From contig CALDSU010000004.1 in the NCBI GenBank assembly GCA_937924525.1, forward strand, positions 310,001 to 374,000: a DNA stretch of 64,000 nucleotides, given 5' to 3'. The notes under the pieces are model-generated. The model was not told where the DNA came from. It saw only the letters and a list, made by a program, of their open reading frames with translations, and searched no databases. Origin of the DNA: an uncultured Bryobacteraceae bacterium. GTDB taxonomy: Bacteria > Acidobacteriota > Terriglobia > Bryobacterales > Bryobacteraceae. A program made the position numbers and the translations under genes. Below are positions 22,984 to 38,581 of this stretch, one piece after another (the stretch's first letter is position 1; every line of letters starts with the position of its first letter).

Positions 22984-23072
22984 TGGTGGCGGGAGCGGGG
23001 GTCGAACCCGCATGTACAGTGAAGTACGCCAGATTTTGAGTCTGGTGCGTCTGCCAGTTCCGCCATCCCGCC
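22984..23072 (-). tRNA. tRNA-Leu (anticodon CAA), CCA encoded
   Basis: RC: GGCGGGATGGCGGAACTGGCAGACGCACCAGACTCAAAATCTGGCG...GGGTTCGACCCCCGCTCCCGCCACCA; acceptor pairs, anticodon stem CCAGA/TCTGG, loop CTCAAAA, long variable arm. Confidence 0.95.
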
Positions 23073-38259: not shown

Positions 38260-38581
38260 GCGGGCGTGGCGGAACCGGCAGACGCAACGGACTTGAAGGA
38301 AACTTGAGTGCCCGCCGGGAAACCGGCGGTGCAGAACTGCTCAAATTCGGGGAACCCTGTAACATGGCGATCCCGAGCCAAGCCTGGCCCCGGAAAACGG
38401 CCGGGAAGGTGTAGAGACTAGACGGGCAGCGCCTGACCCCGGACCCGGGTCCGGACACGGCGAAGGGATAGTCCAGACCCCAAACCCTGGCAGGACGGCA
38501 GGGGCGGCGAAAGCCGTAGCGGGTAAGAAAATCCGTTGGGCCGCAAGGCCCGTGAGGGTTCAAATCCCTCCGCCCGCACCA
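38260..38581 (+). tRNA. tRNA-Leu (anticodon UAA) interrupted by a group I intron; exons 38260-38294 and 38528-38581
   Basis: Joined exons: GCGGGCGTGGCGGAACCGGCAGACGCAACGGACTT|AAAATCCGTTGGGCCGCAAGGCCCGTGAGGGTTCAAATCCCTCCGCCCGCACCA (89 nt, CCA encoded); acceptor GCGGGCG/CGCCCGC, anticodon stem ACGGA/TCCGT, loop CTTAAAA. Confidence 0.96.
38295..38527 (+). ncRNA. group I self-splicing intron (likely subgroup IC3, trnL-type)
   Basis: Inserted after U34; P1 with U-G wobble (exon ACTT with intron GAGT); GAGCCAAGCC at 38375-38384; AAGGTGTAGAGACTAGACGGG at 38406-38426; AAGGGATAGTCCAGACCC at 38463-38480; P7 GACTA(38416-38420)/TAGTC(38469-38473); terminal G at 38527. Confidence 0.94.

Follow-up and report, generated by a model that had tools for sequence, protein, structure and literature searches.

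The 64,000-nt stretch of DNA analyzed here (the window) carries on its forward strand a tRNA-Leu(UAA) gene that is interrupted by a group I intron. The 35-nt 5′ exon (38260–38294) extends through U34 and ends in ..ACGGACTT, and the 54-nt 3′ exon (38528–38581) starts with AAAATCCG and has CCA at its end. Between them lies an intron of 233 nt (38295–38527) without an open reading frame and with its omega-G at position 38527. ARAGORN accepted the tRNA only once the exons had been spliced, as an 89-nt molecule with encoded CCA, and missed the unspliced gene, as did Rfam at its gathering score. RF00028 at a relaxed threshold gave a match over the whole model with 30.2 bits (E 7.3e-6); the curated gathering score is 50 bits, and standard annotation hence overlooks this intron. 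The initial annotation had proposed that two halves join to an 89-nt tRNA-Leu(UAA) around a 233-nt insertion between U34 and A35, and that a trnL(UAA)-type group I intron, ending in G and devoid of a reading frame, is present in an Acidobacteriota genome. All this is borne out, and the host belongs to the Bryobacterales. An intact tRNA-Leu(CAA) gene on the reverse strand (22984–23072) is of interest here for context only, being in relatives the other target of the element family described below.

The internal guide GAGT (38306–38309) pairs with the exon sequence ACTT (38291–38294) to form P1, with a U·G pair at the splice site, and was found in each of the 24 tRNA-Leu(UAA) copies from Bryobacterales that we checked. 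All further helix strands are likewise on the forward strand. In P3, CTGCTC (38337–38342) faces GGGCAG (38424–38429), and four of the six pairs are changed on both sides; P4 is formed by TCGGGG (38347–38352) and TCCCGA (38371–38376). P7 pairs GACTA (38416–38420) with TAGTC (38469–38473) and shows an A-U/U-A compensatory change in a jumbo-phage relative. Both P1 and P7 had already been described in the initial annotation, and P7 now falls within a core with covariation support. For this P3–P7 core, we built a covariance model using seven relatives at the order level together with two phage introns. Over nine related introns, 97.8% of the pair cells are standard and 16 of 36 pairs are changed on both sides, and in a shuffle control 0 of 500 came near the observed value. 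Pairing in the P3-P4-P6-P7-P8 core is thus strongly supported by covariation, and it is beyond doubt that the split tRNA-Leu(UAA) with its group I intron at 38260–38581 is real and more than a chance arrangement. The tRNA arms and all tested intron helices of the window copy are intact. We infer that the gene yields a functional tRNA-Leu(UAA), with the intron splicing itself from the transcript, also in vivo.

The host is a soil bacterium with a 5.52-Mb genome in 21 contigs that is 99.3% complete. Its tRNA inventory was compiled by searches and from fetched sequence stretches of the draft assembly. Scanning with RF00005 and ARAGORN found tRNA-Leu genes with the anticodons CAA, CAG, GAG, and UAG and none for an intronless tRNA-Leu(UAA), and a DNA search of the host genome with the gene as query found no second copy. 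If the assembly is complete in this respect, decoding of UUA relies on splicing. In this near-complete assembly Asn(GUU), Ile(GAU), and Ala(UGC) were likewise not found, probably owing to gaps or rRNA operons; some tRNA genes may hence sit in gaps, perhaps including a second UAA gene.

Inserts that split the native tRNA gene in relatives

In related genomes, the intron-bearing tRNA-Leu(UAA) sits in inserts that cut the native intronless tRNA-Leu(UAA) of the host at the anticodon loop. Both native halves lie on one contig, 3.8–8.9 kb apart, in G006, G149, G069, and G165, being somewhat degenerate in the latter, and on two contigs in G067. We took the exon contexts from direct reading of the sequences and set automatic classifications aside. 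Each insert runs from the native 5′ half, which ends in ..GGACTTAAAA, through a left end, the intron-bearing gene, and a cargo of 3.8–8.9 kb to a right end and the native 3′ half. The right end comprises repeated TTACACAGTT and ACTTAAAA, upon which the native 3′ half follows. This conserved motif occurs at 17 sites in 14 of 257 genomes, versus none for a reversed control pattern, and adjoins 3′ halves of either tRNA-Leu(UAA) or tRNA-Leu(CAA). At the junctions in these relatives, the native tRNA is split and not rebuilt.

By eye, the cargo of the short inserts consists of metal-efflux-like and transporter-like genes; the short tRNA-Leu(UAA) inserts showed no relaxase, coupling protein, or partition genes. 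The larger elements that occupy tRNA-Leu(CAA) share the same right end and contain a relaxase (Relaxase, PF03432), a type IV coupling protein (T4SS-DNA_transf, PF02534), ArdC, and a ParA-type ATPase. One tRNA-Leu(CAA) element of about 61 kb (G189:C198:40260-101797; L492, L451) carries a recombinase, an intronless replacement tRNA, restriction-modification-like genes, a relaxase, a coupling protein, and ParA.

In G067, the native tRNA-Leu(UAA) 5′ half is followed by a tyrosine recombinase gene and then by the intron-bearing tRNA-Leu(UAA). A recombinase directly upstream of the intron-bearing gene is found in Acidobacteriota (Bryobacterales G067 and, in family f8, two named MAGs), and the same gene order recurs in Alphaproteobacteria, namely in Sphingobium cupriresistens, Phenylobacterium, Bradyrhizobium lablabi, Devosia, and several MAGs. 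All these enzymes belong to one tyrosine-recombinase family with 56–88% identity to its first member and weak Pfam integrase matches. Several Bryobacterales copies of the element are without the recombinase gene. No recombinase was found near tRNA-Leu at the 16 cyanobacterial loci checked, or close to tRNA-Leu(UAA) at the 37 viral loci checked. Two candidates were dismissed. The short inserts had been considered as self-contained elements with an unseen recombinase, but a motif search returned chance hits only and the recombinase lies upstream of the G067 intron gene; a 772-aa protein of G149, also considered as a recombinase, has no Pfam match.

No intron was seen in plasmid relatives of the recombinase, most of which restore tRNA-Lys or tRNA-Met in the usual manner. 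A related recombinase in G112 (L508), another genome of the family, lies beside a split tRNA-Ile(CAU) whose sequence is as in the intron-bearing tRNA-Ile(CAU) of Bryobacterales; introns in the latter gene occur in G134, G206, and G245 (L301–L303).

With the native gene split and the intron-bearing gene placed behind a recombinase, the intron-bearing gene is marked as a replacement tRNA brought by an element, in the manner of tRNA-dependent lysogeny (PMC10865867). That the intron-bearing gene replaces the split tRNA is well supported. It is this decisive part, that the gene is the replacement tRNA of an element, which lay beyond the view of the initial annotation, whose interpretation is supported in part.

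Origin of the window copy

Introns of this type are patchily distributed. The R1 model matches 29 of the 250 genomes from the order and 24 of the 396 from the phylum, and in most relatives the tRNA-Leu(UAA) gene is intact and intronless. When the intron-bearing gene is compared with the native gene, the exon acceptor strands differ (GCGGGCG versus CCCGGG). G007 has an intact native gene, and the 5′ acceptor strand of its intron copy has been lost, a decay that would make sense if the intron-bearing gene is required only in cells that have no native copy. In a quick tree of 120 intron cores, based on a short alignment and weak at its deep nodes, the window intron is nearest to the element-borne Bryobacterales copies of G149, G069, and G061 (group support 88), and most cyanobacterial trnL introns fall together in a supported clade of their own. 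One cyanobacterial trnL intron, from Myxacorys almedinensis (L149 / L374), is placed outside the main cyanobacterial clade and may be a later acquisition. The description of the window intron as cyanobacterial or plastid-like thus holds for its kind, i.e., site and architecture, but not for its placement: in this short and weakly resolved tree it groups with the Bryobacterales copies, outside most cyanobacterial trnL introns.

In the window itself we saw no element ends, no native tRNA-Leu(UAA) remnant accompanying the intron-bearing copy, and no synteny of the flanks with other loci, and the window genome contains no member of the recombinase family. Lacking recombinase and ends, the window copy is classed as element-derived and not as an element, and its origin from an element is argued from its kinship with the Bryobacterales copies (support 88, short alignment). 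It would then be a domesticated orphan of an element-borne gene whose element has been lost from this genome. The simplest history is that the whole gene was gained on an element, with the native gene presumably lost afterward and the element probably lost or separated later.

Other origins fit these data less well. The initial annotation had left horizontal transfer and ancient retention side by side; the patchy presence, together with native intronless genes that are split or coexist in relatives, indicates that the gene was acquired and not anciently retained. The broad spread over phyla would suit vertical retention of a trnL intron since the common bacterial ancestor, yet most relatives have intact intronless genes, intron-bearing genes are inserted beside split native ones, and congruence of intron and host trees with many losses was not seen; we find such retention scarcely credible. 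Acquisition might also have concerned the intron alone, moving from cyanobacteria or plastids into the resident tRNA-Leu(UAA) by homing or reverse splicing. Insertion site and general architecture are indeed shared with cyanobacterial trnL introns, and the R1 model also matches introns in 46 of 146 cyanobacterial genomes. However, the exons are unlike the adjoining split native gene in their acceptor strands, from which it follows that the whole gene came in, and most cyanobacterial trnL introns stand in their own clade. Movement of the intron alone is already contradicted wherever a Bryobacterales copy accompanies a split native gene, and overall we consider it very improbable. Finally, the window copy might be a dead relic, with an unassembled intronless gene serving the cell. 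The draft state of the assembly and the three further tRNA families not found speak for such a relic; its arms and tested intron helices are nevertheless intact, unlike those of the decayed G007 copy beside its native gene, which makes a relic very improbable.

The intron and the crossover site

Both halves of the host gene have the 7-nt loop sequence CTTAAAA in common, and the intron is located inside these same 7 nt. Seven nucleotides is the overlap size expected for a tyrosine recombinase. The tyrosine recombinase of the element would insert into the anticodon loop CTTAAAA of the intronless host tRNA-Leu(UAA) and thereby split the gene. This gene would not be rebuilt; instead, the element would bring a complete tRNA-Leu(UAA) just behind its recombinase gene. 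By interrupting the 7-nt crossover region, the intron in the replacement copy could prevent this spare copy from becoming a target for reintegration or wrong excision, while splicing at the RNA level would restore a normal tRNA from the interrupted gene. In the window genome, the element would be gone, leaving the intron-bearing gene as the only UAA-reading tRNA found.

The cores of the replacement genes bear on this proposal. At loci where both sequences are readable, 10 of 10 intron-bearing replacements keep the exact 10-bp core GGACTTAAAA of the host, whereas 4 of 4 intronless replacements differ from the core of their hosts. This comparison has a small effective sample and confounds isotype with intron presence, since the loci are related to one another and the four intronless genes are all tRNA-Leu(CAA) and comprise two independent sequences, one of them common to three genes. 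The tRNA-Leu(CAA) elements of G036, G189, and G149 carry an intronless replacement with a changed anticodon stem, CGGCTCAAAA versus AGACTCAAAA or GGACTCAAAA in the host, and one in Phenylobacterium has GGATTCAAAA versus GGACTCAAAA. A changed stem, GCACTTAAAATGC, is likewise seen in the sole intronless tRNA-Leu(UAA) replacement (G044, L511), which stands outside the 4 of 4 count with its host core unparsed.

Alternatively, the intron may be a neutral self-splicing parasite that is carried along on the replacement tRNAs of the elements. Its position at the crossover would then be a coincidence, explained by anticodon loops being suitable sites for introns and integrases alike. In agreement with this, trnL introns are widespread without any recombinase, an HNH nuclease reading frame in one phage copy (L033) shows that homing-type mobility exists, and group I introns also occur in the T-loop of tmRNA, another integrase target (PMC11915505). 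It is less easily reconciled with cores that are kept exactly in intron-bearing replacements and changed in intronless ones, or with the finding that almost every recombinase locus whose tRNA-Leu(UAA) 5′ half is readable has the intron. We regard a mere passenger as a possibility to be taken seriously, if not the one we favor. Masking, for its part, is unnecessary for intron persistence, as many trnL introns in cyanobacteria, on most viral contigs, and in many proteobacteria have no adjoining recombinase.

Taken as a whole, the explanation that the window gene encodes a functional spliced tRNA, descended from the replacement gene of an element, with an intron that masks the crossover site, appears rather probable to us. 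Its specific step, i.e., masking of the attachment site in the DNA by the intron, is suggested by sequence comparison, and we hold it about evenly poised. We would believe and doubt in equal measure that the intron serves as attachment-site camouflage against self-attack and that domesticated copies explain part of the trnL-intron spread outside cyanobacteria.

Implications and relation to known systems

Bacterial tRNA introns have so far mostly been regarded as tolerated relics or parasites. Our proposal would give such an intron a plausible job and a vehicle, namely integrating elements in two phyla whose replacement tRNA is cut at the very base pairs used by the element's recombinase. It would explain how whole intron-bearing genes come to replace native tRNA genes, what keeps the insertion site so constant, and why an essential tRNA can seem to be missing from the annotation of a genome. 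Ribozymes, the site specificity of integrases, and the dependence of genomes on splicing would thus be connected.

Our findings also invite a second look at Gordonia phage Daredevil, which was reported to integrate at tRNA-Lys(UUU), to encode no tRNA, although the phage needs one, and to form clear plaques (PMC10865867). In its genome (NC_048021.1) we found an unannotated tRNA-Lys(UUU) with exons at L032 positions 1485–1518 and 1757–1794, split by a 238-nt group I intron that is related to the trnL type and has the same loop position as in tRNA-Leu(UAA). This split gene lies near the integrase gene and about 170 nt from an attP-like core CGGACTTTTAATCCGC at L032 position 1316. The odd T-loop ATCGAAA of the Daredevil tRNA-Lys might account for the phenotype of the phage.

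Other phage and tRNA loci carry related features. On viral contig L166 (6104–7784), an intron in a tRNA-Lys-like gene lies 185 nt from an integrase gene, possibly a second interrupted replacement tRNA of a phage. A 735-kb jumbo phage (LR756501.1; L034, 995–1284) has a complete intron-bearing tRNA-Leu(UAA), and in a 595-kb phage (LR756511.1; L033, about 385–1110) the tRNA-Leu(UAA) intron contains an HNH-endonuclease frame (425–1009) and may be a homing form. At least 120 IMG/VR contigs (L157–L276) have introns of the trnL type, many of them in tRNA-Leu(UAA), with no recombinase nearby. In several Acidobacteriota (L363–L370), tRNA-Asn(GUU)-like genes have group I introns, here at a different position in the loop.

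Group I introns in proteobacterial tRNA-Arg(CCU), tRNA-Ile(CAU), and tRNA-Leu(UAA) are known from earlier reports, and a trnL(UAA) intron in a gamma-proteobacterium was reportedly described around 2002. Like the window intron, the proteobacterial tRNA introns are small, without reading frames, and located in anticodon loops outside cyanobacteria. To our knowledge, they have not been linked to integrative elements; at the loci checked, tRNA-Arg(CCU) intron copies, which occupy another loop position, had no directly adjoining recombinase. With the cyanobacterial and plastid trnL(UAA) intron of subgroup IC3, the window intron shares the tRNA, the U34/A35 site, the architecture from P1 to P9, the small size, and the lack of a reading frame. 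It differs by its host phylum and by relatives whose copies reside on integrative elements beside a recombinase, an arrangement seen at 0 of 16 cyanobacterial loci.

In the open-access literature searched, integrases, replacement tRNAs, and introns were not brought together in any paper. According to a 2014 review, all phage group I introns then known were in protein-coding genes (PMC3984707). IStrons (PMC4227781) likewise pair a group I intron with a DNA mobility enzyme; there, the intron carries the transposon and renders its insertion harmless, whereas here it interrupts the spare tRNA gene of the element and not the insertion. Closest in logic is tRNA-dependent lysogeny of actinobacteriophages (Guerrero-Bustamante and Hatfull 2024, PMC10865867), in which the split tRNA is replaced in the same way by uninterrupted tRNAs, and whose authors speculate that a plasmid-borne tRNA gene could act as a second attB. 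In contrast, the elements considered here are of conjugative or mobilizable type, occur in Acidobacteriota and Alphaproteobacteria, and bring a replacement tRNA-Leu(UAA) with an intron inside the crossover site.
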